A stretch of DNA of 64,000 bases, taken from positions 62,001-126,000 of the forward strand of contig JAFEDK010000007.1 in assembly GCA_018241665.1 (NCBI GenBank), written 5' to 3'. Below are positions 1,304-29,215 of the stretch, in pieces. Every line of letters starts with the position of its first letter. Position 1 is the stretch's first letter. The position numbers and the translations under genes were made by a program. Source of the DNA: Pseudomonadota bacterium (lineage in GTDB: Bacteria > Pseudomonadota > Gammaproteobacteria > Burkholderiales > Rhodocyclaceae). The notes under the pieces are model-generated. The model searched no databases and was not told the DNA's origin. It was given only the letters and a program-made list of their open reading frames with translations.

Positions 1304-1321
1304 TACCCTGTTCGGACGATG
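1304..1321 (+). promoter_or_regulatory. shared dyad motif, copy g (weakest left half)
   Basis: TACCCTGTTCGGACGATG. The right half CGGACGATG matches the other six copies exactly, while the left half is degenerate. It lies 68 bp upstream of the Rieske oxygenase start. It is the only copy whose GATG end points away from the gene it would serve. Confidence 0.55.
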
Positions 1322-1344
1322 GGCGCCGGCGCTTTCCGCTTTCT

Positions 1345-2676
1345 TCAACTGGCGGCGGTGGCGAGGGCGCCGAGGCGCGCCTCGTAGGGCCGCACCGCGC
1401 GCCAGAACAGCAGCAGCGTGGCGAGCATCACCAGCAAGGTGGCGACCAGCGCGTAGCGCAGGCCGGCCGCGCCGAGGCTGGCGGTGAACAGATCGCTGAG
1501 GGCGCCGGACAGCAGTGGGCCGAAGCCGGCGCCGAAGAGGGTCAGGAACAGGTTGAGGATGGCGGCGCCCATGGCCCGCTGGTGGGACGCCATCATGTGG
1601 CTGGTCGCGGCGTAGGACAGTGGCGGCCACCAGCTGTTGAAGAAGCCGAAGCCGACCGCGAAGAGCATGGCGTGGGGTACGTGCAGGGCGCCGATGGCCC
1701 ATTGCCCTTCCGCCGGCCACAGCAGGAAGGCGATGCCCATCGGCAGGCTGGCGGCGACGCCGCCGAGGGGGAGCAGGATCTGCCAGCGCACGTGGCGGCG
1801 GGTCAGGCGGTCGCAGTACCAGCCGCTGAAGATCGCCCCGGCCGCGGCGCCCAGACCGCTGGCGAGGCCGAACAGCAGGCCGGCCTGGGCCAGCGGCAGG
1901 CCGTGGCTGCGCACCAGGAAGGTCGGCACCCAGATCCCATAGCCGTAGCCGGCCACACCGGCCAGCCCGCAGCCCAGGCACACGTAGCGGAAGGCCGGGA
2001 TGGCGAGCAGCGTGCGCACCTGGGCCAGCAGCGAGCCGCTGTCCGGCGTGGCGGCGGCCTTTGCGCTGGCACCGTCGAAGGCGCCGCGGCGAGGCTCGCG
2101 GACCAGCAGCCACAGCAGGCCGGCGAGGAGCAGGCCGGGGGCACCGAAGGTCAGGAAGGTGGCGCGCCAGCCGTACTGCTGGGCGATCCAGCCGCCGAAG
2201 GCCATCGCCAGGATCAGGCCGACGTGGGGGCCGACCATGAACAGGCTGATGGCCAGGGAGCGGCGCTCCTTCGGATAGAGGTCGGAGACCATCGAGATGG
2301 CCGGGGCCATGCCGCCGGCCTCACCGACGGCAACGCCCATGCGGGCCAGCATCAGCTGCCAGAACTGGCCGACCAGCCCGCAGGCCATCGTCGCGCAGCT
2401 CCACAGGCCGCAGCACACCGCCACCAGGTTGCGCCGGTTGGCGCCGCGGTCGGTGTAGCGGCCGAGGGGAACGCCCATCACCGCGTAGAGCACGCCGAAG
2501 GCGAGGCCGGTGAGCAGCCCCATGGCGGTGTCGGAGGCGCCGAACTCGCGCTTGATCGGCTCGATGAGCACCGCGATGACGGTGCGGTCGATATAGGAGA
2601 AGACATAGACCAGGGCCAGCAGCAGCAGGCTCAGGTGGGTGCGCCAGGTGACGCTGGGCGGGGGGGCGGCGTTCAT
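1345..2676 (-). CDS. MFS transporter, spinster-like family
   Basis: Inner-membrane major facilitator superfamily carrier of 443 residues with about twelve hydrophobic segments. The start is the ATG at 2676 (MNAAPPPSVTWRTHLSLLLL), preceded by a GAGGA-type ribosome binding site; the open frame continues much further upstream but without coding character. The loop after the second helix carries the MFS signature GRYTDRGANRR, and the DLYPKERRSLAIS segment after helix 4 is typical of the spinster-like branch. It probably imports the substrate of the neighbouring catabolic genes or an intermediate. It is divergent from the metallo-hydrolase gene at 2818, and one copy of the shared dyad sits between them. 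Confidence 0.85.
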   Translation of the reverse strand: MNAAPPPSVTWRTHLSLLLLALVYVFSYIDRTVIAVLIEPIKREFGASDTAMGLLTGLAFGVLYAVMGVPLGRYTDRGANRRNLVAVCCGLWSCATMACGLVGQFWQLMLARMGVAVGEAGGMAPAISMVSDLYPKERRSLAISLFMVGPHVGLILAMAFGGWIAQQYGWRATFLTFGAPGLLLAGLLWLLVREPRRGAFDGASAKAAATPDSGSLLAQVRTLLAIPAFRYVCLGCGLAGVAGYGYGIWVPTFLVRSHGLPLAQAGLLFGLASGLGAAAGAIFSGWYCDRLTRRHVRWQILLPLGGVAASLPMGIAFLLWPAEGQWAIGALHVPHAMLFAVGFGFFNSWWPPLSYAATSHMMASHQRAMGAAILNLFLTLFGAGFGPLLSGALSDLFTASLGAAGLRYALVATLLVMLATLLLFWRAVRPYEARLGALATAAS

Positions 2677-2747
2677 GGAGGGTCCTCGGAGTTGGCGGGC
2701 GGGCTGGCCCATGGCGGGGCATGCTGGGCTCGCGGAGGAGGGCGGAC

Positions 2748-2765
2748 ATCGTCCTTTTGGACGTT
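2748..2765 (-). promoter_or_regulatory. shared dyad motif, copy f
   Basis: Read on the minus strand it is ACGTCCAAAAGGACGATG, with a perfect GTCC-N4-GGAC dyad. It lies 72 bp upstream of the MFS start and 53 bp upstream of the metallo-hydrolase start, so one site could serve both divergent genes. Confidence 0.75.
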
Positions 2766-2817
2766 TTGCGTGAAAGGGTCTGGCGCCTAGATTCGGGTAC
2801 CCCAACAAGGAGGGCCT

Positions 2818-3891
2818 ATGGCTGACTTCGCCCGAGATTCCGACACACCGGCGGCTGCAGCCGCCGCCCCGCTGGCCTTTCCCTTCGACCCGCCCACGCC
2901 GGACGGCGCGGTGGTGGAACTGGCGCCGGGCATCCTGTGGGCGCGCATGCCCATGCCGATGCAGCTGGACCACATCAACGTCTACCTGCTGCGCGACGAC
3001 GATGGCTGGTACATCGTCGATACCGGCCTCAACACGGAAACCAGCCGGGCCCTGTGGGAGCAGATCGCCGCCACCCGGCTGGACGGGCTGCCGTTCAAGG
3101 GCCTGCTGTGCACGCACTTCCACTACGACCACGCCGGGCTGGCCGACTGGCTGACGCGGCGCTTCCACATTCCGCTGTGGATGACCCACGGGGAGTTCTA
3201 CATGATGCGGGCGCTGGCGGTGCCGCTGCCCGAGCCGGAGCCGGACGGGCTGCGCCATTTCCACGCCCGCGCCGGTATGCCGGCCGAGCGCATCGATGCG
3301 ATGATCCGCGGCCTGCGTCGCGACCCCTTCCTGCCGCCGCAGCCGGAGAGCTTCCAGCGCCTGCGCGCCGGCCAGACCCTGCGCATCGGCGGGCGGAGCT
3401 GGCAGGTGGTGGTGGGCGAGGGGCATTCGCCCGAGCACGCCTGCCTGTACTGCGCCGAGGATCGCATCCTGATCGCCGGCGACCAGTTGCTGCCGCGCAT
3501 CACGTCGAACGTGCTGGTGTCGAGCATCGAGCCGGAGGGCAACCCGTTGCAGCTGTGGCTCGAATCCCTCGACCGGCTCGAGAAGCTGGCGCCGGACACG
3601 CTGGTGTTGCCGTCCCACGAGAAGGTGTTCACCGGCCTGCCGGCCCGCGTCGTCGGCCTGCGCGATCATCACCACACCCAGTTCGCACTGGTGCTGGCGG
3701 CGCTCGCCGATGCCGGCGCGGCGACCGCCTTCGAGGTGATGGGGCAACTCTTCCCGCGCCGCCTGAGCTCCGTCGAGGAGATGATGGCCCTCGGCGAAAC
3801 CGTCGCCCACCTGTCCTGGCTGCGCTACGACGGCCAGGTGGTGCGCGTGCTCGACGAGGACGGGGTTTACCGTTTCAGCGTGGCTGCCTGA
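2818..3891 (+). CDS. metallo-beta-lactamase-fold hydrolase
   Basis: Predicted soluble dinuclear-metal hydrolase of 357 residues. The metal-binding signature is H100-F-H102-Y-D104-H105, followed by H203 in GEGHSPEH and D222 in IAGDQLL, the usual order for this fold. A strong AAGGAGG ribosome binding site precedes the ATG. Members of this fold act on thioesters, lactones, glutathione adducts or phosphodiesters; nothing in the sequence fixes the substrate. Placement beside an acyl-CoA synthetase makes a thioesterase or lactonase role in the catabolic pathway a reasonable guess. The gene is followed 84 bp later by the synthetase on the same strand. Confidence 0.85.
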   Translation: MADFARDSDTPAAAAAAPLAFPFDPPTPDGAVVELAPGILWARMPMPMQLDHINVYLLRDDDGWYIVDTGLNTETSRALWEQIAATRLDGLPFKGLLCTHFHYDHAGLADWLTRRFHIPLWMTHGEFYMMRALAVPLPEPEPDGLRHFHARAGMPAERIDAMIRGLRRDPFLPPQPESFQRLRAGQTLRIGGRSWQVVVGEGHSPEHACLYCAEDRILIAGDQLLPRITSNVLVSSIEPEGNPLQLWLESLDRLEKLAPDTLVLPSHEKVFTGLPARVVGLRDHHHTQFALVLAALADAGAATAFEVMGQLFPRRLSSVEEMMALGETVAHLSWLRYDGQVVRVLDEDGVYRFSVAA

Positions 3892-3975
3892 GACTGGCGG
3901 CCGCGATGCCACGATAACAACACGACACCATAACAACGCCCGGCCCGCCCGACGGCGGCCGGCGAGGAGACCACG

Positions 3976-5658
3976 ATGACCCATTCCCTGGACCTGGCCC
4001 TGCAGTGCCGGGCGCAGCTGCTTGCGCCCGGCGGACCGTTCGAGCTCGTCGACTGTGAAGTCGGCGGCTACATGCAACGCCGCTATCGCAACGCCTTCCC
4101 GACCCTGCCGGCGCTCATCGAGGCGAGCCGCGGCCATGGCGACAAGCCCTTCATCGTCTATCGGGACGAGCACTGGAGCTTCGCCCGCTTCTTTGCCGAC
4201 GTGGATGCCGTCGCCGCACGCCTGCACGGGTTGGGCATCGCCAAGGGCGAGCGGGTGGCGATCGCCATGCGCAACCGGCCGGAGTGGGCGGTGGCCTTCG
4301 CCGCCGCGGCGCTGATCGGTGCGGTGCCGGTGCCGCTGAACAGCTTCGGGCTGGCCGAAGAGCTGCTCGCCGCGCTGGCCGACGTCAGCCCGCGCGTGCT
4401 GTTCTGTGACCCGGAGCGCCATGCGCGGCTAGCCGGGGTGCTGCCGGCAGGCCTTGAGGTCGTCGTCACCGACGATGGCGCGGCGGGCTCCCACGCCTAC
4501 CGGACGCTGGCCGCCCAGCCGGCACCACCTCGGCCCGTGGTGGCGGTGACGCCGGACGATGCGGCGCTGATCCTGTTCACCTCCGGCGCAACCAGTCGCG
4601 CCAAGGGCGTGCTGTCCACCCAGCGGGCGGTGTGCCAGGCCTTGTTCAACATCGACTTCATCTCGGCGTTGTCGGCGATGAGCTCGCCGGAAGCGGTGCA
4701 GGCCATCATGGCCCGCGGCCTGCCGCCGACGACGCTCACTGCCGTGCCGCTGTTCCACGTCAGCGGCCTCCACGCCCAGTTGCTCAACGCGCTGCGCAAC
4801 GGCCGGCGGCTGGTGTTCACCCACCGCTGGGACCCGGCCGCGGCCCTTGAGCTGATCGCGCGGGAGAAGGTGACCCAGTTCAACGGCGCGCCGTCGATGG
4901 TCATGCAGCTGCTGGCCGAGCCGGGCTTCAACGATCCGGCGATCACGGCCAGCCTCGGTGGGCTGGGCTTCGGCGGCGCGGGCCTGCCGCAGCGGGCCAT
5001 CGACGAGGTGCTGCGCAGCCCGCAGGGGCAGATGTCGGGCATCGGCTTCGGGCTGACGGAGAGCAATGGCGTCGGCGCGGCGGTGTCCGGCTCGGTGTTC
5101 CGCTACCAGCCGAAGTCGTCCGGGCTGGTGTCGCCGATCATCGACGTGCGCATCGTCGATCCTGGCGGCGAGCCGCTGCCGGAAGGGCAGGTCGGCGAGA
5201 TCTGGCTGCGCGGCGTGACGGTGATGGAAGGCTACTGGAACGCGCCGGAGGCCACCGCCGCGGCGCTGCAGGACGGCTGGTTCCATACCGGCGACGTGGG
5301 CTACGTGAGCGAGGAGGGGCTGCTGTTCGTCGTGGACCGCATCAAGGACGTGATCAACCGCTGCGGCGAGAAGATCGCCGCAGCGGAGGTCGAGTCCTGC
5401 CTGCTGCAGCTGCCGGCGGTGCGCGAGGCGGCCGTCTTCGCGATGCCCGACGAGGAGACCGGCGAGGCGGTGGCGGCTGCGGTGGTGGTGGACGAGGGCA
5501 GCCCGCTAGGGGCGGAGGATCTGCGGGCCCACGTGGCGGCCCACCTGGCGGCCTACAAGGTGCCGGAGCGCATCTTCGTGCGTTCGCTGGCCCTGCCACG
5601 CAACCCGGCCGGCAAGCTCCTCAAGGCCGACCTGAAGCGGGAGTATTTGCCCGCCTGA
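3976..5658 (+). CDS. acyl-CoA synthetase (AMP-forming)
   Basis: Class I adenylate-forming ligase of 560 residues, converting a carboxylic acid to its CoA thioester through an acyl-AMP. Visible motifs are the phosphate loop TSGATSRAKGV near residue 200, the GFGLTESNG motif, the hinge region GWFHTGDVGYVSEEG near 434 with DRIKDVINRCGEKI, and the C-terminal catalytic lysine region PRNPAGKLLK. A GAGGAGA ribosome binding site precedes the ATG. The substrate is not determined; the context suggests an acid derived from the compound handled by this locus. It follows the metallo-hydrolase gene and is closed by a clear terminator. Confidence 0.88.
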   Translation: MTHSLDLALQCRAQLLAPGGPFELVDCEVGGYMQRRYRNAFPTLPALIEASRGHGDKPFIVYRDEHWSFARFFADVDAVAARLHGLGIAKGERVAIAMRNRPEWAVAFAAAALIGAVPVPLNSFGLAEELLAALADVSPRVLFCDPERHARLAGVLPAGLEVVVTDDGAAGSHAYRTLAAQPAPPRPVVAVTPDDAALILFTSGATSRAKGVLSTQRAVCQALFNIDFISALSAMSSPEAVQAIMARGLPPTTLTAVPLFHVSGLHAQLLNALRNGRRLVFTHRWDPAAALELIAREKVTQFNGAPSMVMQLLAEPGFNDPAITASLGGLGFGGAGLPQRAIDEVLRSPQGQMSGIGFGLTESNGVGAAVSGSVFRYQPKSSGLVSPIIDVRIVDPGGEPLPEGQVGEIWLRGVTVMEGYWNAPEATAAALQDGWFHTGDVGYVSEEGLLFVVDRIKDVINRCGEKIAAAEVESCLLQLPAVREAAVFAMPDEETGEAVAAAVVVDEGSPLGAEDLRAHVAAHLAAYKVPERIFVRSLALPRNPAGKLLKADLKREYLPA

Positions 5659-5665
5659 GCACCAC

Positions 5666-5692
5666 ACCGGACCTCTGCGGGGGAGGTCCGGT
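5666..5692 (+). terminator. rho-independent terminator after the acyl-CoA synthetase gene
   Basis: A perfect 10-bp stem, ACCGGACCTC at 5666-5675 and GAGGTCCGGT at 5683-5692, with a 7-nt loop and a short T-rich tail. Confidence 0.75.
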
Positions 5693-5697
5693 TTGCT

Positions 5698-5715
5698 TAG
5701 TCCTCTCGGACGATG
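5698..5715 (+). promoter_or_regulatory. shared dyad motif, copy a
   Basis: TAGTCCTCTCGGACGATG, a perfect match to the consensus, starting 5 bp after the terminator and 125 bp upstream of the DUF1329 gene. A weak -10-like AAGAAT follows about 20 bp after its end. Confidence 0.8.
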
Positions 5716-5840
5716 TTCCGGTGTCGCCTTCGCCGAAGAATGGTCCCGGATGAATAGCGGCAACCCCGGTTGCCTGGCTGGACATCCACACCTCTGACCA
5801 TTCAGACCAGGAGGCCGCCAGGCCTCCGGAGGAGACACAA

Positions 5841-7226
5841 ATGAAAAGAACCCCGTCATGGCTACCCGTGATGAGCACCTTGGCCCTGTCCATCGCTGCG
5901 GCGAACGTCAGCGCCAAGGTTCCCGAAGCAGAGGCCGCCAAGCTCGGCAAGGAACTCACCTGTATGGGGGCCGATGCCGGCGCCAACAAGGATGGCAGCA
6001 TCCCGGCCTTCGCCGGCAAGTGGCTGGGTACGCCGCCGGGGGTGAAGTACACCCCGCATGTGGGGCAGCATCCGGTGGATCCCTACGCCAGCGAGAAGCC
6101 GCTGCTCACCATTACCGCCGCCAATATGGCCCAGTACGCGTCGCGCCTCAGCGATGGCCAGAAGGCGCTGCTGACCCGCTATCCCGACAGCTTCCGTATC
6201 CCGGTCTATCCCGGCCATCGGGACTTCCGCTACCCCGACAGGATCTGCGAGCTGGCCAAGAAGAATGCCCGTGAGGCGGAGCTGATCGACAACGGCCTCG
6301 GCTTCACCGGCGTGATGGGGCCGGTGCCCTTCCCGATTCCCAAGTCGGCAATGGAAGTGCTGGCCAACCACAACTTTCCGTACCGGGCTTTCACCGAGAA
6401 CAATCTGGGCCGCGACATTGCTGACGTGAACTCCAAGGGCAACATCACCTGGGGCCGCCAGATCAACCGCAACTACAACGTGGTGACCCAGCCCGACAAC
6501 CTCGGCAAGCCGATGGAAGGCACCATGGCCTACACCATCACCGGCACGCTGCTGCCCGAGCGCGACAAGGGCACGATGACCACCTCCACCGAGCCGGTCA
6601 ACTTCGCCCGCGCCAAGCGCCTGGCCTGGAACTACGACCCGGGTACCCGCCGCGTCCGCCAGCTGCCCCAGTACGGCTACGACACGCCGATGGCCGGCAC
6701 CGGCGGCAAGCTCACCATCGACTCCGACCGCCTGATGAACGGCGCGCCGGACCGCTACGAATGGAAGCTGCTCGGCAAGCGCGAGATGTACATCCCGGCC
6801 AACGCCTACAAGATTCACGGCAAGAACGTGAAGTACGCCGACCTCCTCAAGCCCGGCCACGAGAACCCGGACTACATGCGCTACGAGCTGCGCCGCGTGT
6901 GGGTGCTGGAGGGCGACCTGAAGGAAGGCTATCGCCATGTCTTCGGCAAGCGCGTGATGTTCATCGACGAGGACACCTGGCATGCGGTGATGGGCGATTA
7001 CTACGACACCCGTGGCCAGCTGTGGCAGCACGCCTACATCAACTACTACTACGCCTTCGACCTCAACGCCTGGCATGCCGGCTCGAGCTTCTACCACGAC
7101 CTGAATTCCGGCAGCTACATGGCCTACAACCTGTTCCAGGAGCGGGACATCGGCCCGATCCTCAACAAGGGCGACCTGAGCCCCGAGCAATTCACGCCGG
7201 CCGCGCTGCGTTCGGCCGGCAACTGA
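5841..7226 (+). CDS. DUF1329 family periplasmic/outer-membrane protein
   Basis: Exported protein of 461 residues. It starts with a signal peptide (MKRTPSWLPV, a hydrophobic stretch, then ASVSAK-like cleavage around residues 24-26). The body matches the DUF1329 family, which is thought to have an outer-membrane lipoprotein-sorting-like fold. DUF1329 genes commonly neighbour DUF1302 genes in catabolic loci for hydrophobic substrates, which is also the arrangement here with a 24-bp gap. The biochemical role of the family is not established; binding or handing over a hydrophobic molecule at the outer membrane is inference. A GGAGGAGA ribosome binding site precedes the ATG, and the operon carries a perfect copy of the shared dyad. 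Confidence 0.88.
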   Translation: MKRTPSWLPVMSTLALSIAAANVSAKVPEAEAAKLGKELTCMGADAGANKDGSIPAFAGKWLGTPPGVKYTPHVGQHPVDPYASEKPLLTITAANMAQYASRLSDGQKALLTRYPDSFRIPVYPGHRDFRYPDRICELAKKNAREAELIDNGLGFTGVMGPVPFPIPKSAMEVLANHNFPYRAFTENNLGRDIADVNSKGNITWGRQINRNYNVVTQPDNLGKPMEGTMAYTITGTLLPERDKGTMTTSTEPVNFARAKRLAWNYDPGTRRVRQLPQYGYDTPMAGTGGKLTIDSDRLMNGAPDRYEWKLLGKREMYIPANAYKIHGKNVKYADLLKPGHENPDYMRYELRRVWVLEGDLKEGYRHVFGKRVMFIDEDTWHAVMGDYYDTRGQLWQHAYINYYYAFDLNAWHAGSSFYHDLNSGSYMAYNLFQERDIGPILNKGDLSPEQFTPAALRSAGN

Positions 7227-7250
7227 TTCTTGCACCGGGGAGACACACAG

Positions 7251-8951
7251 ATGAAAAAACACAACACCCTGCGCCCGGTGGCGCTGGCCCTGATCGGCGT
7301 CGGCCTGGCCGCGCCGGCCCTGGCGGGCGAGAGCGTCGTCTTCGACAACGGCTACAAGCTCGACTGGCGGGTGAATAGCACCTACACCCTGTCCACCCGC
7401 CTGCAGGAGCAGGACAAGCGCCTCGCCGCCAATGCGGGCGGCAACGACGGCGAGAACAACTTCAACAAGGGGAGCCTGACCGCCAACCGCCTGAGCCTGC
7501 TGTTCGATGCCACCGTATCGAAGGGCGACACGGGCTTCGTGATGTCGGCGAGTACCTTCTACGACGACGTCTATCACCACAGCAACGACAACAAGGGGCC
7601 GATCAACCAGCCCGGCCCGGTGGATGAGTTTGCCCGTCAGACGGTGTTCTACCACGGCGGCTACACCCGCATGCTCGATGCCTACGGCTACACCAGCTTC
7701 GACCTGCCGGGTTCGAGCCGCGCCACCGTGCGCCTGGGCCGGCATGTGGTGTCGTGGGGCGAGGCGCTGTTCTTCCCGAGCATCTCCCTGGCCCAGGGGC
7801 CGGCGGACGGCACCAAGACCGGCATCGTCGGTACCGAGACCAAGGACCAGCTGCTGCCCGAAGACCAGATCTCCGGCCAGATCGAGGTCAGTCCGCGCTG
7901 GTCGCTGCTCGGCCAGCTGCAGTTCGGCTTCCACCCGACCCTGGCGCCGGCCCCGGGTTCCTACCTTAACACCAGCGACTCGGTCGGGCCCGGCGGCAGC
8001 TGCCTGGGGCCGTACTCGCGGATCCCCAGCGTCGGCAACCTGTTCGCCGGCTATTCCGGGTGCAGCTTCGGCAAGCGCGGCGACAACATCAATCCGGGCA
8101 ACACGCCGCAGTGGGGCGTCGGCACCCGCTACCGGGTCAGCGACGAAACAGAAGTCGGCCTGTATTACCTGAACTACCACGACCGCACGCCGGTCCCGGT
8201 GATCAACGCCTTCACGCCGGGTGTCGGCATCCCGGCCGCCTTGCAGACGGCCTTCGGCGGCATCACCCAGATTGGTAACGGTTCGTACCGGATCCGCTAC
8301 TTCGACAACATCAGCCTGGTTGGCGCGACCTTCAGCACCATCGTCGGCATCGCCTCCATCGCCGGTGAGCTGTCGTACAAGCACGGCGCGCCGACGCTGG
8401 TCAGCACGGTGGTCAATCCGTCGTCCGGTGCGGTGATGCCGACCCCGACCCGGGCCGACATCGTGCAGGCCAACCTGAACGCGATCTTCAACTTCGAGCG
8501 CACCATCCTCGCCGACACGACCACGCTGACGACTGAAATCGCCTACGTGGGGGTGTCCAACATCGAGAAGATCAAGGCGCCCGGCGTGGAAGGACTGGGC
8601 GCGATGGCGGCCTTCTTCCCGACCTCCGACAAGCCCTTCTTCAACACCAACCACGGGCTGGCGGTGTCCGGCACGCTGGCCCTGAGCTATCCCGGCATCT
8701 TCGAGGGCTGGGACCTGTCGGTGCCGATCAGCCTGTCGCGCCAGCTGCAGGGCCGCACGCTGACCGGCGGCGTGGGTGGGGAAGGGGATACCCGCGGCAG
8801 CATCGGTGCCAACTTCACCTACAACCGCAACTTCCAGATCGGCCTGACCTACCTGGGCTATTTCGGCAAGGCGGAGACGGTGGACCAGAAGAAGATCAAC
8901 CTGCTCACCGACCGGGACCAGCTGTCCCTGGTGATGAAGTACTCCTTCTGA
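7251..8951 (+). CDS. DUF1302 family outer-membrane beta-barrel protein
   Basis: Outer-membrane protein of 566 residues. The ATG at 7251 is chosen because it follows GGGGAGA and begins a clear signal peptide (MKKHNTLRPV, a hydrophobic core, then APALAG). The mature part alternates aromatic and polar residues and ends in KYSF, the C-terminal phenylalanine typical of beta-barrels inserted by the Bam complex. It is predicted to form an outer-membrane channel or receptor for a hydrophobic compound together with the DUF1329 partner; this is inference from family context. A strong terminator follows. Confidence 0.88.
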   Translation: MKKHNTLRPVALALIGVGLAAPALAGESVVFDNGYKLDWRVNSTYTLSTRLQEQDKRLAANAGGNDGENNFNKGSLTANRLSLLFDATVSKGDTGFVMSASTFYDDVYHHSNDNKGPINQPGPVDEFARQTVFYHGGYTRMLDAYGYTSFDLPGSSRATVRLGRHVVSWGEALFFPSISLAQGPADGTKTGIVGTETKDQLLPEDQISGQIEVSPRWSLLGQLQFGFHPTLAPAPGSYLNTSDSVGPGGSCLGPYSRIPSVGNLFAGYSGCSFGKRGDNINPGNTPQWGVGTRYRVSDETEVGLYYLNYHDRTPVPVINAFTPGVGIPAALQTAFGGITQIGNGSYRIRYFDNISLVGATFSTIVGIASIAGELSYKHGAPTLVSTVVNPSSGAVMPTPTRADIVQANLNAIFNFERTILADTTTLTTEIAYVGVSNIEKIKAPGVEGLGAMAAFFPTSDKPFFNTNHGLAVSGTLALSYPGIFEGWDLSVPISLSRQLQGRTLTGGVGGEGDTRGSIGANFTYNRNFQIGLTYLGYFGKAETVDQKKINLLTDRDQLSLVMKYSF

Positions 8952-8980
8952 TCCCGCAGTCGCCGTCCGGTCGACGCGCG

Positions 8981-9014
8981 AAGCCCGCCCGACGCAAGCC
9001 GGGCGGGCTTTTCC
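8981..9014 (+). terminator. rho-independent terminator after the DUF1302 gene
   Basis: An 11-bp stem, AAGCCCGCCCG at 8981-8991 and CGGGCGGGCTT at 9000-9010, followed by T residues. It closes the first catabolic block; the next gene is on the opposite strand. Confidence 0.85.
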
Positions 9015-9033
9015 GCTTTGGCTTGCGGCGTAT

Positions 9034-9408: not shown

Positions 9409-9442
9409 GGTTCGGCTCCGGCGTTGGGCGGGATGAAGGGAG

Positions 9443-10426: not shown

Positions 10427-10442
10427 CGCACCCTCCGTTTAA

Positions 10443-10467: not shown

Positions 10468-10475
10468 AAAAAAAT

Positions 10476-11123
10476 TCACCGGGGCAGGCCGGTGAAGAAA
10501 AAATCAGCGAAGACTTCCAGTGGCCGGCTCGATGCCTCCAGCTTGGCACGCAGCACCGCGCCTTCCCAGCCGATCCAGAAGCAGTTGGCCAGGCGCTGGC
10601 AATCGGCGTCGGCGGCGATCGCGCCATCGGACCGCGCCGCTTCCAGACAGGCGGCCACGCGTTCTTCCCAGTCGGCGAAAACTGCCGCGAGCTGCTGGCG
10701 CAGGGTGTCCGGCAGGCTGGCGGTTTCCTGGCCCAGGTTGCCGACCAGGCAGCCACGGCGGAACTCGAAGCGCGCCATGCCGCCGCCGGCATCGGCAACG
10801 AAATTGCGCAGGCGCTGTAGCGGCGGCTGGCTTTCGTCGAGCAGGAAGCGGTCGAGCTTGCGGGCGAAGTAGCCGGCGTAGCGCTCGATCAGCGCGCTGC
10901 CGAAGGCTTCCTTGCTGGGAAAGAAATGATAGAAGGACCCCTTCGGCACGCCCACGCGGGACAGGATCTGGTCGATGCCGGTAGCGGAAAAGCCCTTTTC
11001 GGTCAGCACCTCGACGCCCGCACGCAGCAGCGCCTCGCGGGTTTCGCTGAAGCCGTTGGCGCTCTTCGGCGGACGGCCGCGGCGACGCGGGGTGGTGTTG
11101 GAGGCGGGGGGCTGAAGGTCCAT
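10476..11123 (-). CDS. acuR: TetR family regulator, AcuR-like
   Basis: DNA-binding repressor of 215 residues. After a basic RRRGRPPK stretch comes the TetR helix-turn-helix around residues 30-75, with FSATGIDQILSRVGVPKGSFYHFFPSKEAF. The C-terminal domain should bind an effector; by analogy to AcuR this would be acrylate or a related short acid. It lies upstream of acuI on the same strand, and similar dyads are found in front of both genes, which suggests autoregulation and control of acuI. The hemerythrin-like gene may belong to the same unit. Confidence 0.82.
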   Translation of the reverse strand: MDLQPPASNTTPRRRGRPPKSANGFSETREALLRAGVEVLTEKGFSATGIDQILSRVGVPKGSFYHFFPSKEAFGSALIERYAGYFARKLDRFLLDESQPPLQRLRNFVADAGGGMARFEFRRGCLVGNLGQETASLPDTLRQQLAAVFADWEERVAACLEAARSDGAIAADADCQRLANCFWIGWEGAVLRAKLEASSRPLEVFADFFFTGLPR

Positions 11124-11132
11124 GGAGAGAAA

Positions 11133-19942: not shown

Positions 19943-19993
19943 GTGGCACGCGGCGCGGGCCAGAACAGGCTCCGCACCGTGTGTGGCGTCAGC

Positions 19994-22369: not shown

Positions 22370-23370
22370 GAGGAGGCTCCGGAAATCGAGGGCCGGGTGG
22401 CGGCGGCCGCGTGGGTTGTGGGTCGGTAGCGCTGCAGGCCGCCATCGCTGCTGAGCAGCCAGCTGCCGTCGCCGAGGGCCTGCAGGCCGGTGAGGCTGGC
22501 GCGGCCTTCCTTGCGCACGATGTTGAAGCTACGCCCGCCGTCGTGGCTCGCGAGGACCATGCCGCCCTGGCCGGCCAGCAGCAGGCTGCCGTCGGCACCG
22601 ACCGCGTGGCCGTAGGTGGAGATCGGGCCGGGCATGCTGGAGGCCTGCCAGCTGCGGCCGCCGTCCTCGCTGTGGAAGACCTTGCCGCGCATGCCGTAGG
22701 CCACCCAGCGGCCGCCGCCCAGATCGGCGGTGCCGTAGATGGAGCCGTTGTAGAACGGCGGTACGACGTTCCAGTTGCGGCCGCCATCGTCGGAGCGGAG
22801 CAGGGTGCCGGCCTCGCCGGCGATCAGCCACTGCTGGCCGTCAGCCGAGCCGGCGATGCTGTTCAGGTGCCAGTCGCTCAGCCCGGGGATCTCGTGGGGC
22901 GTCCAGCTGTGGCCGTCATCGGTGGACTTCAGCACCCGGCCAAAGGCGCCGATGGCCAGCCACTCGCCCGATGGCAGGCGGGCGGCGCTCATCAGCGGTT
23001 CGCCGTTGGACTGGGTGAAGGCGCTCTCCTGCCAGCTGCGCCCGCCATCGGCGCTGCGCAGGATCCAGCCCTCGTGACCAAGGGCCAGCCCGGTGCCGTT
23101 GCCGGCGAAAACCATGCGGGTGATTACCGCCTGGCGGTCCTGGGGCAGGTGGGCCGGTTGCCAGCTGCGGCCGTCGTCCCGGGAGACCAGAATCTTGCCG
23201 AGCTCACCGGCTGCAACGAGGCCGGCCTGGGTGCGTGCGAGGCTGTTGAGCTGCATCTTGTCCACCGGTAGGTCAGTCGGGCGGAACTGGGGCGTGCTGC
23301 GCGGGGAAAAGGCAAAAATGCCGGCGGCCGCGACGACCGCGGTCAATGCCATGCCAACGTGGGTTCGCAC
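22366..23370 (-). CDS. YCF48/BNR-repeat beta-propeller protein
   Basis: Exported or membrane-anchored protein of 334 residues. The GTG at 23370 is chosen because AGGAGA stands just before it and it begins a signal-anchor (VRTHVGMALTAVVAAAGIFA). The rest is a series of Asp-box repeats (SRDDGRSW, SADGGRSW, STDDGHSW, RSDDGGRNW, HSEDGGRSW, ASHDGGRSF), about one per 45 residues, as in the YCF48/photosystem II assembly-factor-like propellers. In bacteria without photosystems such genes commonly accompany MMPL transporters. It is translationally coupled to the RND gene, so it probably acts as a periplasmic partner. A copy of the shared dyad lies 92 bp upstream. Confidence 0.85.
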   Translation of the reverse strand: MRTHVGMALTAVVAAAGIFAFSPRSTPQFRPTDLPVDKMQLNSLARTQAGLVAAGELGKILVSRDDGRSWQPAHLPQDRQAVITRMVFAGNGTGLALGHEGWILRSADGGRSWQESAFTQSNGEPLMSAARLPSGEWLAIGAFGRVLKSTDDGHSWTPHEIPGLSDWHLNSIAGSADGQQWLIAGEAGTLLRSDDGGRNWNVVPPFYNGSIYGTADLGGGRWVAYGMRGKVFHSEDGGRSWQASSMPGPISTYGHAVGADGSLLLAGQGGMVLASHDGGRSFNIVRKEGRASLTGLQALGDGSWLLSSDGGLQRYRPTTHAAAATRPSISGASS

Positions 23371-23462
23371 GGGTCTCTCCTTTCGGGCTGGGGGCCAGGG
23401 GCCTCGGATGGCGCGTCTGTCTGCGTCGAGTGGCTGAATTATTGGCGCCCGCATTTCCACGG

Positions 23463-23480
23463 CATCGTCCAAAAGGCTTA
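23463..23480 (-). promoter_or_regulatory. shared dyad motif, copy e
   Basis: On the minus strand it reads TAAGCCTTTTGGACGATG, with the GATG end toward the YCF48-like gene. An ATAATT element stands about 20 bp beyond it. It is head-to-head with copy d in the same 293-bp divergent region. Confidence 0.7.
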
Positions 23481-23550
23481 GTGCGGATGGGCGCCGTGCA
23501 TGCCGGCCCCGCGCTGCTTCTTTCCCGCCGCCTTCCGCGCTCGCAAGCGT

Positions 23551-23568
23551 TAGTCCGTTCAGACGATG
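23551..23568 (+). promoter_or_regulatory. shared dyad motif, copy d
   Basis: TAGTCCGTTCAGACGATG, one mismatch in the dyad, lying 95 bp upstream of the HsaA-like gene with its GATG end toward that gene. Confidence 0.72.
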
Positions 23569-23663
23569 AATCGCCACTCCCCGCTGTGGAACGCTTGGAC
23601 CCATCGAAGTGTTTGACTGGCCACAGCATTTCCGCTGTCCGCCTTGACCGACGAGGGAAGACC

Positions 23664-24887
23664 ATGAACGCAGTGACGAAGGAGCAGGAGATGGATGTGC
23701 ATGCAGACGACTACATGACCCCGGAGGCGGTCGAGCTGATCGCCCGGGCGAAAGCTCTGGCGCCGAAGCTGGCCGAGCGGGCCCGCGACGCCGAGAGCAA
23801 GGGCATCGTGCCGGCCGAGTCGGTGCGCGAGATGGCCGAAGCCGGGCTGTTCCGTGTGCTCCAGCCCCGTCGATGGGGCGGCTACGAGCTGGACCCGCGG
23901 GTCTTCTACCGGGTGCAGATGGCGCTGGCCGAAGGCTGCATGTCCACCGCGTGGATCTACGGTGTGATCGGCGTGCACAACTGGCAGCTGCCGCTGTTCC
24001 CCGAACAGGCCCAGAAGGATGTGTGGAGCAAGGACAACGGCACGCTGATCGCCTCCACCTACATGCCGGTCGGCAAGGCCGAGAAGGTCGAAGGCGGCTA
24101 CCGCTTCTCCGGTCGCTGGGGTTTCTCCAGCGGCGTCGAGCATTGCGAGTGGATCTTCCTCGGCGGTCTGCTGCCGCGCCGGGACGGTGGCGAGGGCTTC
24201 GAGCACACCACCTTCCTGCTGCCGAAGTCGGATTTCCGCGTCGAGCACAACTGGGACGTGCTGGGCCTGCGCGCCACCGGCAGCCACGACATCGTCGTCG
24301 AAAACGCCTTTGTGCCCGAGCACCGTACCCAGCGCACCAACGACCACAGCGACGTGGGCTGCCCCGGTCGTGACACCAATCCGGGCTGGCTGTACCGCAT
24401 CCCGTTCACCCAGGTTTTCCAGCGTGCGGTGTCGTCGGCCTGTCTCGGCGCCCTTGAGGGTGCGATCGCCCATTTCCGCGAGCGCGCCGCGGCCCACGTG
24501 GGCAAGCACGGCGCCAAGACCGCCGAGGATGTGAATGCCCAGATGGCGGTCTGCGAGGCAATGATGACCGCCGACCAGCTCAAGCTGGTGCTGTTCCGCA
24601 ACTACGCCCGCATCGTCGAATGCGCCAAGACCGGCGAGCGCATGCCGGTGGAGGAGCGCCTGATGCAGCGCGCCCAGGCCTCCCAGGTGCCCAAGCTGTG
24701 CGCCGCCGCGGCCAGCGAGCTGATGCGTGCCTGTGCGGCGTCCGGCACCTACCGCAGCAACCCGATCGAACGTATCTTCCGCGACATCCACCAGGCCCGC
24801 GCCCACATCGCCAACAACTCGGACGCCTACGCCCGCGCCCACGGCGCGGTGATGCTCGGCCTGCCGAACATGGACGCCTTCGTCTGA
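23664..24887 (+). CDS. flavin-dependent monooxygenase, HsaA/HpaB-like acyl-CoA dehydrogenase fold
   Basis: Oxygenase component of a two-component flavin monooxygenase, 407 residues, starting at the ATG at 23664 after GAGGGAAG. The fold is that of acyl-CoA dehydrogenases, but the sequence (GLFRVLQPRRWGGYELDP, STAWIYGVIGVHNWQLPLF, SGRWGFSSGVEHCEW, LGLRATGSHDIVVE) follows the group D monooxygenases such as HsaA/TesA2, which hydroxylates a phenolic steroid intermediate, and the p-hydroxyphenylacetate 3-hydroxylases. It needs reduced flavin from a separate reductase; none of the usual small HsaB-type proteins is adjacent, but the KshB-like reductase follows by 24 bp. The exact phenolic or enolic substrate is not known. 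Confidence 0.83.
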   Translation: MNAVTKEQEMDVHADDYMTPEAVELIARAKALAPKLAERARDAESKGIVPAESVREMAEAGLFRVLQPRRWGGYELDPRVFYRVQMALAEGCMSTAWIYGVIGVHNWQLPLFPEQAQKDVWSKDNGTLIASTYMPVGKAEKVEGGYRFSGRWGFSSGVEHCEWIFLGGLLPRRDGGEGFEHTTFLLPKSDFRVEHNWDVLGLRATGSHDIVVENAFVPEHRTQRTNDHSDVGCPGRDTNPGWLYRIPFTQVFQRAVSSACLGALEGAIAHFRERAAAHVGKHGAKTAEDVNAQMAVCEAMMTADQLKLVLFRNYARIVECAKTGERMPVEERLMQRAQASQVPKLCAAAASELMRACAASGTYRSNPIERIFRDIHQARAHIANNSDAYARAHGAVMLGLPNMDAFV

Positions 24888-24911
24888 CCGGCAACGACAA
24901 GGCAGGATGAG

Positions 24912-25955
24912 ATGAACGCCGCCCGCTACCACCGCCTCACCGTCGCCGAGGTGAGCGACGAAACCGCCGACGCCCGCTCCTTCAGCTTCGACGTGCCGCC
25001 GGACCTGGCCGAGCAGTTCCGCTACCGCCCGGGGCAGTTCCTCACCCTGCGGCTGCCGGTGGGCGGGCGGCACCTGCCGCGCTGCTACTCGATGTCCAGC
25101 ACGCCGGGGCTGGACGCCCGCCTGCGGGTCACCGTCAAGCGGGTGGCCGGCGGGCGGGGTTCCAATTGGCTGTGCGACCGGATCAAGCCAGGCGATAGCC
25201 TTGAAGTGCTGGCGCCAGCCGGGGTGTTCACCCCCAAGGCGCTGGAGGGAGACTTCCTGTTGTGCGCCGGCGGCAGTGGCATCACGCCGGTCTTCTCCAT
25301 CCTGCGTACGGTGCTGGCGAACGGGCAGGGCCGGGTGCGCCTGTTCTACGCCAACCGGGACGAGGCTTCGGTGATTTTCCGTGACGCGCTGAAAGCCCTG
25401 GCCGCGGCGCATCCGGAGCGCTTGCAGGTGATCCACTGGCTGGATTCCGTACAGGGCACGCCGTCGGTGGCGCAGCTGGCGGCCTTTGGGCGTGATCTGC
25501 GGGATGCCCAGGCCTTCATCTGCGGCCCGGGCCCGTTCATGGATGCGATGGCGACGGCACTCGTCCAGGCCGGACTGCCGGAGGAACGCATCCACGTGGA
25601 GCGTTTCCTGTCCCTGCCGGACGAGGAGGACGGCGCCGCACTGGCGGCCAACGTGGAAGCCGGCCCGCCGGCGGTCGAGCGTGCCGAGCTGGAAGTGCTG
25701 CTGGACGGTGTGACGCACACTATCGACTGCGGTGGCAGCGAAACCCTGCTCGACGCCGCGCTGCGTGCCGGCCTGCTGGCGCCCCATTCCTGCCGGGCCG
25801 GCCTGTGCGCGTCGTGTATGTGCCAGGTGCAGGAAGGCGAGGTGCACCTGCGCCACAACGAGGTGCTCGACGACAAGGATCTGGCCCGCTCATGGACCCT
25901 GAGCTGCCAGGCTGTTCCGCTGAGCGGCAAGCTCCGCGTCCGCTTCCCCGGCTGA
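24912..25955 (+). CDS. ferredoxin-NADP reductase-type oxygenase reductase, KshB/PaaE-like
   Basis: Electron-transfer protein of 347 residues with three domains in order: FAD-binding (RCYSMSSTPG near residue 57), NAD(P)H-binding (GGSGITPVFSILR near 117) and a C-terminal plant-type [2Fe-2S] ferredoxin with C294, C299, C302 (SCRAGLCASCMC) and a last cysteine in LSCQA near 332. The RHNEVLDDKDLA stretch after the cluster loop is close to KshB of 3-ketosteroid 9alpha-hydroxylase. It probably reduces the KshA-like Rieske oxygenase at 133-1236, although the genes are 23 kb apart, and sits in a two-gene operon with the HsaA-like monooxygenase. Confidence 0.88.
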   Translation: MNAARYHRLTVAEVSDETADARSFSFDVPPDLAEQFRYRPGQFLTLRLPVGGRHLPRCYSMSSTPGLDARLRVTVKRVAGGRGSNWLCDRIKPGDSLEVLAPAGVFTPKALEGDFLLCAGGSGITPVFSILRTVLANGQGRVRLFYANRDEASVIFRDALKALAAAHPERLQVIHWLDSVQGTPSVAQLAAFGRDLRDAQAFICGPGPFMDAMATALVQAGLPEERIHVERFLSLPDEEDGAALAANVEAGPPAVERAELEVLLDGVTHTIDCGGSETLLDAALRAGLLAPHSCRAGLCASCMCQVQEGEVHLRHNEVLDDKDLARSWTLSCQAVPLSGKLRVRFPG

Positions 25956-25970
25956 TGCGCCTGGCGGCCG

Positions 25971-25988
25971 TAGTCCTGTCGGACGATG
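25971..25988 (+). promoter_or_regulatory. shared dyad motif, copy b
   Basis: TAGTCCTGTCGGACGATG, a perfect consensus match, 83 bp upstream of the ETF beta gene. It gives this operon its own regulated start despite the tight packing behind the reductase gene. Confidence 0.8.
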
Positions 25989-26071
25989 GCGCGCCACCAC
26001 GCGCTCCGTAAGCTGGGTTCCGGGGAGAGGCCCGCGCCTGCTCCCGGGCAAACCCAGCAAGGAGAAGCGAC

Positions 26072-26821
26072 GTGAAAATATTGGTCCCCGTCAAACGGGT
26101 AGTGGATTACAACGTGAAGGTCCGCGTCCGCGGCGACGGCTCCGGCGTGGAACTGGCCGGCGTGAAGATGGCCATCAACCCCTTCGACGAGATCGCCGTG
26201 GAAGAGGCCGTGCGCCTGCGCGAGGCCAGCATGGCCACCGAAGTGGTGGCGGTGAGCTGCGGGCCGACCGCCTGCCAGGAAACCCTGCGCACCGCACTGG
26301 CGATGGGAGCCGACCGGGCAATCCTGGTGGAGACCGACGCCGAACTGCAGCCGCTGGCGGTCGCCAAGCTGCTCAAGGCCGTCGCCGACAAGGAACAACC
26401 CGACCTGGTGATCTGCGGCAAGCAGGCCATCGACGACGACGCCAACCAGACCGGCCAGATCCTCGCCGCGCTGATGGGGCGCGGCCAGGCCACCTTTGCG
26501 TCGAAGCTGGTGCTGAGTGGACGGACACTCGAAGTCACCCGCGAAGTGGACGGCGGCCTGGAGACTCTCGCTCTTGAGCTGCCGGCGGTGGTCACCGCCG
26601 ATCTGCGCCTCAACGAGCCGCGCTACGCGACGCTCCCCAACATCATGAAAGCCAAGAAGAAGCCGCTGGAGGTACTGCCTGCCGGCGCGCTGGGCGTGGA
26701 CGTCGCGCCGCGCCTGCGCCATACCCGCCACGCCGAACCTGAAGCCCGCAAGGCCGGTATCCGCGTGGCCGACGTGGCCGAGCTGGTCTCCCGCCTGAAG
26801 AACGAAGCCAAGGTGATCTGA
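26072..26821 (+). CDS. etfB: electron transfer flavoprotein beta subunit
   Basis: Beta subunit of the soluble electron carrier ETF, 249 residues, starting at a GTG eight bases after [22 protein letters not shown] and [17 protein letters not shown] at the N-terminus and the [12 protein letters not shown]-like segment [15 protein letters not shown] are typical of the family. ETF takes electrons from acyl-CoA dehydrogenases and delivers them to ETF-quinone oxidoreductase, encoded at 37503-39158. The gene is 2 bp from etfA. Its private copy of the shared dyad suggests it is induced with the catabolic pathway, as a set dedicated to it. Confidence 0.95.
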
Positions 26822-26823
26822 AC

Positions 26824-27768
26824 ATGAAGACTCTGGTTATTGCCGAACACGACAACGCCGCGCTGGCGCCGGCCACCCTCAATGTCCTGGCTGCCGCCGC
26901 AAGGCTCGGTGGCGAGGTAGACCTGCTGGTCGCCGGGCAGGACTGCCGCGCGGTGGCCGAGGTGGCTGCGGCTGTCGCGGGTGTGGCCCGCGTGATCCTG
27001 GTGGACGCGCCGGCCTACAAGGATCAGCTGGCCGAGAACCTGGCCGCGCTGGTGGTCGCACAAGTACGTACAAAGTCATACGGCGCGGTGCTTGCGGCGG
27101 CCTCGGCTTTTGGGAAGAATCTCGCTCCCCGCGTGGCGGCGCTGCTGGATGTGGCGCAAGTTTCCGACGTGGTGTCGATTACCGCGGTCGGCCGTTATGT
27201 GCGGCCGATCTACGCCGGAAATGTGCTGGTGTCGGTGGAGTCCGACGAGCCCGTGCAGGTGCTGACCGTGCGGCCGACGTCCTTCGACGCGGTGGCGGCA
27301 ACGGGCGGTGCCGCAACGGTGGAAGAAGCGCAGGCCGAGGCCGACCTGGGCCTGTCGCGCCTGGTGGGCCGGGCGCTCAGCAAATCGGAACGCCCCGAAC
27401 TGGGTTCTGCTGCTATCGTGGTGTCGGGCGGGCGCGGGCTGGGCAACGGCGACAATTACCAGCAGGTGCTGGCACCGCTGGCCGACCGGCTCGGCGCGGC
27501 GTTGGGGGCTTCGCGAGCGGCTGTTGATGCGGGCTATGTGCCCAACGACTACCAGGTCGGCCAGACCGGCAAGATCGTCGCGCCGGGGCTGTACCTGGCG
27601 GTCGGCATCTCCGGCGCCATTCAGCACCTGGCCGGCATGAAGGATTCGAAGGTGATCGTCGCGATCAACAAGGATCCGGATGCACCGATCTTCCAGGTGG
27701 CCGACTACGGTCTGGTCGGTGACCTGTTTGAAGCAGTACCGCAATTGACTGCCAGCCTCGCCAGCTGA
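26824..27768 (+). CDS. etfA: electron transfer flavoprotein alpha subunit
   Basis: Alpha subunit of ETF, 314 residues. The C-terminal FAD-binding region is clear: [13 protein letters not shown], the [19 protein letters not shown] segment, and [20 protein letters not shown]. It follows etfB with a 2-bp gap and pairs with it as a heterodimer. Electrons would come from acyl-CoA dehydrogenases acting on the CoA esters made by this locus; no classical acyl-CoA dehydrogenase gene lies in the window, so those are encoded elsewhere. Confidence 0.95.
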
Positions 27769-27777
27769 GCGTCCCCA

Positions 27778-27804
27778 GGGGCCGGGTTGTACCCAGCCGG
27801 CCCC
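27778..27804 (+). terminator. hairpin after etfA
   Basis: GGGGCCGG at 27778-27785 pairs with CCGGCCCC at 27797-27804, with a further GGG/CCC pair inside the loop. There is no T-run, so it may be only a partial terminator before the regulator gene. Confidence 0.45.
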
Positions 27805-27880
27805 CGCGGGATGCCAGGAAGAAAGAGCGAAGCGGCAGAGCAAACATATAAAACAAAAGCATGACCGGAGGAGAGGTGAC

Positions 27881-29026
27881 GTGGCAGAGATTGAACTGGA
27901 TATGGCGGTGTACGACCGCATCGTGGGAGGACTCTACGATGCGGCCCTCGACAGCCGGCGCTGGGGAACCGCGCTGGAAGCCCTGCGGGAGCTGTTCACC
28001 GCCAATTTCGTGACACTGATCCTCCGGGTGCCCGACGTCACCGACGTGGGCTTGATGATCTCGGTCGGCGAACTGCCGGGCGGTATCGGTGGCAAGGTGG
28101 TCTATCACACCTACCAGCACACCACGACGCCCTTCGTGAACCAGCCGGCCGACAAGGTGTTCACCGTCGAAGATCTGATGAGCGAGGCCGAATGGCGGCA
28201 GAGCGCCTATTACCAGCACTGGTGCGAGCCCCATGGCGTGTTCCATGTGATGGGCGCCGACATCGCCACGCCGGAGGCCGGCAAGCTGCGCTTCCGCCTG
28301 ACCCGGCCCGAAGGTGCGCCGCCGTTCAACGAGCAGGAACGGCGCCTGTGCCAGACGCTGATCCCGCACCTGCGGCGGGCGCTGCAGGTGCATAACCTGC
28401 TCGACCGTAGCGAATCCCTCGGCACCCTGTATTCCAAGGCCATCGGCCGCCTGTCGGTGGCCACGATCGTCCTCGACGAGACGGGCAAGGTGCTCGACCA
28501 GAACCTGATCGCCCAGGAAATCCTCGACAGCGGCGACGGCCTCAAGCTGGTCGGTGGCCGCCTGGAGGCCACCTATCCCAGCGACAACCGCGGCCTGCAG
28601 CAGCTCATCCGCAGCGCCTTCTCGCGGCAAGGGGGCGAGCGGCTGGTGCCCGCCGAGGCGATCTCCATCTCCCGCCCGTCCGGGCAGGTGAATCTCGGCG
28701 TAGTGGTGGAGGCGGTGCCGTCCAGCGAATGGGCGGAAGGCAAGGGCCAGCCGGCGGCCATCGTCTATATCCGCGATGCGGCGGGCAAGTCCCTGGCCAG
28801 CACCACGGTGGCCAAGCAGCTCTTCAACCTCACCCCGGCCGAGACCGCATTGGCGATGGAGTTGGCCAACGGCCTGTCGCTGGAAGAGGCGGCGGAAGCC
28901 CTCAACATCCGGCGCAACACCGCCCGCGCGCATCTGCGCTCGATCTTCTCGAAAACCGGCGTGCGCCGGCAGACCGAGCTGGTCCGCATCATGCTCAACA
29001 GCGTAGCCCCCCTCAGCCACCGCTGA
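27881..29026 (+). CDS. LuxR-type transcriptional regulator, probable regulator of the catabolic locus
   Basis: Regulator of 381 residues, GTG start after GGAGGAGAGG. The C-terminal 65 residues are a LuxR-type helix-turn-helix (FNLTPAETALAMELANGLS, EEAAEALNIRRNTARAHLRS, TGVRRQTELVRIML). The N-terminal 300 residues have a PAS-like sensory layout and no receiver domain, which suggests direct binding of a small molecule. It recalls LuxR-type regulators of steroid breakdown such as TeiR, but similarity was judged by eye. It is the only regulator inside blocks 1 and 3, and the seven copies of an 18-bp dyad around it have the size and symmetry of a LuxR-family site. No copy lies in front of its own gene. 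Confidence 0.85.
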   Translation: MAEIELDMAVYDRIVGGLYDAALDSRRWGTALEALRELFTANFVTLILRVPDVTDVGLMISVGELPGGIGGKVVYHTYQHTTTPFVNQPADKVFTVEDLMSEAEWRQSAYYQHWCEPHGVFHVMGADIATPEAGKLRFRLTRPEGAPPFNEQERRLCQTLIPHLRRALQVHNLLDRSESLGTLYSKAIGRLSVATIVLDETGKVLDQNLIAQEILDSGDGLKLVGGRLEATYPSDNRGLQQLIRSAFSRQGGERLVPAEAISISRPSGQVNLGVVVEAVPSSEWAEGKGQPAAIVYIRDAAGKSLASTTVAKQLFNLTPAETALAMELANGLSLEEAAEALNIRRNTARAHLRSIFSKTGVRRQTELVRIMLNSVAPLSHR

Positions 29027-29197
29027 TCGCAAGCCCTTCAGGCCGGCCGCACATGGCCCGGGCCTTCTGTCGTTCCGCCCATCGATCCTCGCCGCACCCC
29101 TTCGGGTGCCGCGGGGTTTTGGCACGTCTGCCGTACGGCGTCCGGCCAGCGTGGGCGGAGCCCTGCCTGATCTTAGAAGCTGGCCGGGCGTGGCCCC

Positions 29198-29215
29198 TAG
29201 TCCGGGCGGACGATG
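29198..29215 (+). promoter_or_regulatory. shared dyad motif, copy c
   Basis: TAGTCCGGGCGGACGATG, a perfect consensus match, 71 bp upstream of the thiolase gene. An ATACTG element follows at about 22 bp, so the dyad would be centred near -42, as in class II LuxR-type activation. The rest of the 260-bp gap between regulator and thiolase shows nothing else clear. Confidence 0.8.

Follow-up and report, generated by a model that had tools for sequence, protein, structure and literature searches.

The putative steroid gene region and its box

We analyzed a 64,000-nucleotide stretch of a genome of the Rhodocyclaceae (the window; C53:62001-126000 of a 5.43-Mb assembly, where C denotes a contig of this genome, G000, G a genome and L a locus) and an 18-bp dyad, here called the box, that recurs between its genes. 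The box was searched for with the pattern TAGTCCN4GGACGATG, and its consensus is TAGTCC-N4-GGACGATG. Judging by its KshA-, HsaA- and steroid-CoA-ligase-like genes and its ETF, the region appears to be a cluster for 9,10-seco steroid catabolism, and the gene of a LuxR-type regulator (27881-29026) sits within it. Several gene names were given by likeness, with scores below the curated NCBIfam cut-offs. The features that matter here are the following (HTH, helix-turn-helix).

1..80, minus strand: 5' end of a third paralogue of LuxR type (C53:60959-62080, 38% identical), most of it lying beyond the window
133..1236, minus strand: kshA-like Rieske oxygenase (PF19298, KshA_C)
1302..1321, minus strand: kshA-promoter box, reading TCGTCCgaacAGGGTATG toward kshA, with a CACAAT -10-like hexamer starting 21 bp past the box
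2747..2766, no single strand: box between a divergent MFS gene (minus) and an MBL-fold hydrolase gene (plus), ACGTCCAAAAGGACGATG
3976..5658, plus strand: steroid-CoA ligase-like, CasG-like gene, with a score under that model's cut-off
5698..5715, plus strand: perfect box upstream of the DUF1329-DUF1302 genes
23463..23480, minus strand: box upstream of the BNR/YCF48-like and MMPL genes
23551..23568, plus strand: box upstream of the hsaA-like/reductase operon
23664..24887, plus strand: hsaA-like monooxygenase, likely true start, with a score under the HsaA model's cut-off
24912..25955, plus strand: ferredoxin-type reductase
25971..25988, plus strand: perfect box upstream of etfB-etfA, with luxR next
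26072..27768, plus strand: etfB, etfA
27881..29026, plus strand: TeiR/TesR-like LuxR-type regulator, predicted GAF-like - PAS-like - HTH
29198..29215, plus strand: perfect box between luxR and the thiolase genes, 3' of luxR
29287..36509, plus strand: beta-oxidation block (thiolase, FadB-like, NMO, CoA-transferase, CoA ligase)

A pattern scan of the window confirmed the seven copies that an earlier, sequence-only reading had listed, all of them between genes. The right half (G/A)GACGATG was found in 7 of the 7 sites, and the three copies described as perfect are those at 5698, 25971 and 29198; the copy at 23551 has one mismatch, those at 2747 and 23463 (both on the minus strand) have two, and that at 1304 has three. 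At up to two mismatches, the window held seven matches, six of them in gaps, which make up 10.6% of the window; none of the seven fell in the restriction, gentisate, cyanophycin or glp regions, as that reading had said. The seventh match, absent from the earlier list, carries two mismatches and lies at 4152-4169 within the CoA-ligase gene; it is probably coding background and was set aside. At up to three mismatches, there were 24 matches (both strands being counted for some palindromic sites) versus 4.58 expected, and 0 of 100 shuffles got to 24. Distances from box to start codon were 65 bp for kshA, 70 and 51 bp for the two neighbours of the 2747 site, 110 bp for the 23463 site by our own gene call, and 125, 95, 83 and 71 bp for the remaining sites. 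The range given before, 53 to 125 bp, thus keeps its upper limit and its placement in gaps, and its lower limit becomes 51.

The site at 1304 had been read on the plus strand (1304-1321), where it faces the 3' end of the MFS gene. In Aromatoleum toluclasticum (L055) and Azoarcus sp. Aa7 (L056), the kshA promoter has the box as TCGTCCAAACAG(G/A)GGATG in the minus-strand layout of the kshA site here, so the plus orientation was discarded and the site assigned to kshA. In the same two loci, the 2747 box is letter-identical upstream of the MBL orthologues. It is flanked by -10-like hexamers on either side (CAGCAT at +21 on the minus strand, TAGATT at +22 on the plus strand) and is probably bidirectional.

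Across the genome, all six perfect copies and 7 of the 12 one-mismatch copies lay within C53:1-92k or C45:1-20k (binomial P value ~1e-18 for concentration in these ~112 kb of steroid loci), and all 13 of these cluster copies were intergenic. Outside the clusters, four of the five one-mismatch copies were inside genes (C17, C33 and two in C51) and one was intergenic (C3:4825). With zero or one mismatch, there were 18 copies in the genome versus 5 for the reversed pattern. The regulon extends beyond the window: the earlier proposal of a 28-kb regulon stands as to the regulon, while it now covers 92 kb or more, with a further contig in addition, and its substrate class is steroids. Box-preceded genes outside the window encode SDR proteins (with an OYE-type gene behind one of the genes), an HsaC-like dioxygenase, an acyl-CoA synthetase, a KstD-like dehydrogenase and an HsaB/HpaC-type flavin reductase, as well as a chemoreceptor and an MFS transporter; an HsaD-like gene lies near the site at L032:279. 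Two boxes at L035 2838-2907 separate a flavin-reductase gene from a gene for methyl-accepting chemotaxis, which suggests that chemotaxis is part of the regulon.

Conservation and promoter geometry

We looked at 80 loci around LuxR orthologues, 19 of them from Zoogloea/Thauera/Azoarcus-type betaproteobacteria (the beta set) and 61 mainly from Pseudomonas (the Pseudomonas set), in which intergenic DNA makes up 14 to 17%. All copies with at most one mismatch were intergenic (179/179), as were 273 of the 277 with at most two; among copies with exactly three mismatches, the share was 64/183. On the loci tested (19/19 of the beta set and 20/61 of the Pseudomonas set), the box itself gave 40 and 48 matches, respectively, and twenty shuffled patterns together gave no intergenic and four in-gene matches. 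Owing to kinship among the loci, the same sites recur; 31 and 42 distinct 18-mers remain. At least 58 of the 61 Pseudomonas-set loci held a copy; sites identical to earlier ones were dropped, and L082, L105 and L118 were without a counted one.

Next, we examined orthologous promoters for a box with at most two mismatches between -350 and +30. All 47 hsaA promoters tested had one, with the exact 18-mer of the 23551 box recurring in 14 of them, and by coordinates a box also precedes hsaA in G231, G472 and G181. Retention was complete for the BNR gene (15/15), kshA (2/2), the MBL gene (2/2), kstD (1/1) and the SDR gene of L035:19187 (1/1), high for the SDR gene of L031:552 (8/9) and gene 36610 (57/67), partial for etfB (7/19) and low for the MMPL gene (5/66). 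No box was found before orthologues of the reductase gene 24912 (0/47) or of gene 37485 (0/13), neither of which has its own box in the window. For the 5698 site, none of its orthologues was testable in the 80 loci. The 29198 box is likely the counterpart of the box before the 36610 orthologues. In the window, the thiolase-to-CoA-ligase block at 29287-36509 separates luxR from gene 36610, and the two genes are adjacent in Zoogloea L042 and L043; the 29198 box may derive from an old luxR-36610 junction.

Orientation and spacing were evaluated on intergenic, nonduplicate sites with at most two mismatches (18 from our genome, 80 from the beta set and 182 from the Pseudomonas set). The GATG end had been said to face the gene in most copies, and it did so at 16/18, 75/80 and 181/182 sites, or 272 of 280. 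The weak -10-like element proposed at 20 to 22 bp was also recovered: in all three sets, the best-scoring hexamer started 21 bp past the box (z = 5.8, 4.4 and 4.8, respectively, over 70 offsets). With the -10 element placed at -12 to -7, the box would span about -50 to -33, and its TAGTCC/GGACGA axis is predicted near -42.5, in agreement with the dyad centre near -42 put forward earlier. A dyad centred there before a -10 element is typical of class II activators of the LuxR family, and the geometry supports this class for the box as far as promoter sequences can tell. A repressor operator is an improbable reading of the box. Several repressors, one of them LuxR-type, are described for 3,17beta-HSD in Comamonas; the box, however, ends 20 bp ahead of the -10-like element without overlapping it, a position typical of class II activators.

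The LuxR-type regulator and the box across genomes

The protein encoded at 27881-29026 has a C-terminal LuxR/GerE HTH (PF00196, residues 317 to 370, above the cut-off). In a Pfam search to an E value of 1e-5, this was the only domain; the N-terminal autoinducer-binding domain of quorum-sensing LuxR proteins, the receiver domain of NarL/FixJ proteins and a kinase domain were not found. In the predicted fold (mean pLDDT 75.5, pTM 0.49), residues 2 to 179 match phytochrome GAF domains, and residues ~190 to 300 appear PAS-like, judged by strand order alone. The closest named relatives are from Zoogloea (83%), and 28 of 45 aligned LuxR proteins share the helix RRNTARAHLRSIFSKTGVRRQTELVR unchanged. 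A second paralogue, C53:2476-3618, is 66% identical to the window protein and comes after two tightly spaced genes with a perfect box upstream.

Box copies and the regulator were then compared across genomes. Among 150 genomes of the family, the 10 with LuxR (best E value up to 1e-54, a cut set after the list was inspected) had a mean of 7.6 copies versus 2.1 in the other 140, among which weaker LuxR matches occur (Mann-Whitney test, P value = 1.5e-5; without our own genome, mean 6.4, P value = 6e-5). This count-only test is weak evidence. A background of ~2 copies per genome blurs single genomes (G022 has 1 copy, and the 7 of G129 look like background). Within the genus of G452, copy numbers were 7, 7, 8, 10 and 8 in the five genomes with a LuxR homologue versus 0, 1 and 0 in the three lacking one (Mann-Whitney test, P value = 0.017). 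Copies also cluster near the regulator: G452 has 7 within 75 kb around its LuxR gene, and in G139 all 13 of 13 lie within 187 kb of 4.17 Mb, together with three of the four LuxR homologues of that genome. In Aromatoleum anaerobium (G555), 13 of 15 copies fall in one 250-kb stretch of its contig C13. Counts exceeded reversed-pattern controls in Pseudomonas fragi G553 (10 versus 0) and P. fluorescens HK44 G554 (11 versus 2), and in genomes with a more distant LuxR, namely G211 (41% identity; 17 versus 1), G181 (36%, from the same phylum only; 9 versus 0) and G231 (50%; 8 versus 4). Nine LuxR-negative genomes had 0 to 6 copies each. At both C1:3080432 and C1:3478529 of G211, the aligned part of a LuxR gene runs directly into a box, whose TAG may be the stop codon of the gene.

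Plasmids carry the same combination. A 174-kb plasmid of Vibrio alfacsensis (L171, NZ_CP140104.1) has 7 copies versus 0 in controls, together with etfBA-luxR (LuxR at 55% identity) and genes typical of these clusters; this plasmid with cluster, regulator and boxes suggests that the regulon was transferred as a unit. In a 31-kb stretch around the LuxR gene in each case, Caballeronia pSBC2-1 has 4 copies and Cupriavidus necator p1 has 2 with at most one mismatch. A BLAST search of plasmids with the hsaA box turned up a single match, attributable to chance.

We consider it very likely that a TeiR/TesR-like activator of steroid catabolism, of LuxR type, uses the box as its operator; this would be the window protein and probably also C53:2476-3618. 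Several observations weigh against this reading. In the genus of G452, the reversed-pattern controls (10, 2, 5, 3, 5, 6, 4 and 4) are not low everywhere; they do not track the regulator, and the contrast lies between genomes and in placement. No enrichment was seen in G472 (6 versus 5), G449 (2 versus 3) or Burkholderia arboris L172 (one 2-mismatch copy), and by count G044 has 9 copies versus 7 in the control. Conservation upstream of orthologous operons, clear for hsaA, the BNR gene and others, does not hold at every gene (fadD 0/3, SDR gene of L031:3835 4/68, FAD gene of L035:8491 1/4, luxR 2/80), and nine of our own target genes, including DUF1329, thiolase and hsaC, are without a testable orthologue in the 80 loci. 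At two mismatches, the genome has 105 copies versus 91 for the reversed pattern; at this stringency, the ground for refutation named in the earlier reading, as many matches in unrelated genes as in promoters, applies, whereas it does not at zero or one mismatch, and a genome scan therefore needs strictness or context. Many of the two-mismatch copies are background and fit a motif of chance or coding bias; against such a motif stand the intergenic conservation, the congener contrast, the -10 offset and the Vibrio plasmid copies. It is refuted for copies with zero or one mismatch, and we give it next to no credence.

The remaining counterevidence concerns which protein binds. The HTH regions of the window protein and C53:2476-3618 are nearly identical, differing at just 3 of 67 positions, and the gene run of the latter has a perfect box upstream; the box could be mainly the paralogue's operator, or the sites could be split, with the window protein otherwise employed. 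This is unlikely, although less so than the other alternatives: G452, G546 and G551 each have one homologue at an E value of 1e-60, which may correspond to either of our paralogues, and still 7, 7 and 10 copies. Further, HsaA was found in 4 of the 150 genomes, all with LuxR, and this co-occurrence separates the regulator poorly from the pathway, leaving room for another co-inherited binder. A different regulator of the steroid cluster could then bind the box while the LuxR-type protein has its role away from it, perhaps as a sensor or kinase, in keeping with accounts of Comamonas TeiR as a polar, membrane-located kinase, a role that predicts no operator. Other regulators do occur in some clusters (a TetR gene at 10476 in the window, an HTH gene on the Vibrio alfacsensis plasmid). 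However, the window TetR has no tblastn match in the 80 loci (1e-10, over half its length), the three LuxR-negative congeners nearly lack the box genome-wide, though the whole cluster may be missing there, and the letters of the box may change along with the helix of more distant LuxR proteins (a 34%-identical Sphingobium LuxR has the symmetric GGACTATG nearby). We regard this alternative as improbable. The G027-type genomes help a little in separating regulator from pathway: LuxR is 40% identical and the best hsaA match only 34%, yet perfect or one-mismatch boxes precede a KstD-like gene, a CoA-transferase gene (which we take to be ipdA-like by position), an SDR gene with an IpdE2-like gene behind it, and a gene for an acyl-CoA dehydrogenase. 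The near-absence of the box in congeners without LuxR supports the earlier proposal of a LuxR-type binder, of which the protein at 27881-29026 is, with C53:2476-3618 at hand, not the sole candidate. The proposed regulon and its class II geometry are likewise supported.

Proposed mechanism and comparison with known systems

In the mechanism that we propose for the LuxR-type activator, a steroid or pathway intermediate would be sensed by the GAF/PAS-like region, and the protein would bind the dyad as a dimer. The box, at about -50 to -33, would then place it beside RNA polymerase at the weak -10 element (class II activation), and genes for ring and side-chain degradation and for transport would be switched on. 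Both regulator genes lie in gene runs with a perfect box upstream, which makes positive feedback likely. Direct binding, activation, the ligand, the operon limits, the feedback and orthology to Comamonas TeiR are parts of this scheme that we infer.

An activator of the LuxR family with a dyad operator is a known kind of system; within our limited literature search, this operator and its breadth appear to be new. Class II LuxR-family activators with lux-box dyads share the dyad position near -42; the window protein has no detected autoinducer domain, and the box sequence is not known to resemble the lux box. In Actinobacteria, KstR and KstR2 are described as governing pathway-specific regulons of steroid catabolism. 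They are TetR repressors, unlike the LuxR-type candidate here, and their operators are not known to be related to the box. TeiR/TesR of Comamonas is presented in three papers as a LuxR-type positive regulator of steroid genes (PMC6678751, PMC8700777, PMC13101464), and the window protein resembles it as a LuxR-type HTH protein encoded in a steroid cluster. Those accounts, as far as accessible, name no binding site, and one speaks of a kinase, whereas the operator and -10 geometry here point to direct activation. In Pseudomonas stutzeri Chol1, two TeiR-like genes (C211_RS11295 and a second) share one steroid cluster, like the paralogues here, and cholate is degraded with a delay when one of them is deleted (unpublished data cited in PMC8399759); the portions of that paper at hand name no operator and call the regulation of bile-acid degradation in Proteobacteria largely unknown. 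EdcR of Caenibius, an estrogen repressor (PMC8700777), is also steroid-responsive, but its operator palindrome, TnnCnnTACnAnTnGTAnnGnnA, differs from the box and overlaps the -10 box. A literature search, to which most subscription papers were closed, found no published description of the box or of a TeiR/TesR binding site.

We are evenly divided on a broader proposal, namely that steroid catabolism in beta- and gammaproteobacteria, and in at least one genome from outside these classes (G181), is under a single steroid-response operator that travels, on plasmids as well, with its GAF-PAS-LuxR activator. This operator would also serve degraders without a close HsaA (the G027 type, with boxes before kstD-like, CoA-transferase and SDR/ipdE2-like genes) and possibly oxygen-independent ones, and would be to Proteobacteria what the KstR system is to Actinobacteria. 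A conserved operator offers a direct test of whether TeiR-like proteins activate promoters themselves and lets regulons be read from sequence. The box links genes of unclear role (DUF1329/DUF1302, MMPL, chemoreceptor and MFS) to steroid use, and its promoters could be used for steroid biosensors.

Three further observations concern related sequences and the layout of the region. A symmetric variant, TAGTCCN4GGACTATG, occurs in G112 (C1:507682 and C1:2503206), G116 and G065 and in L175 (20309 and 22660); it is also present in genomes without a TeiR-like match at an E value of 1e-20 and may mark another regulator. The C3:4825 copy (L037 4825-4844) is nearly palindromic and lies between the ends of an rne-like and a uvrB-like gene, downstream of both and at a great distance from the steroid genes. 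Finally, the window segment 9034-19942, with an AcuI-like reductase, TetR and a type I restriction system, lies between the DUF1302 and MMPL genes, which are near neighbours in Zoogloea L044, and it is therefore likely an insertion into the steroid cluster.

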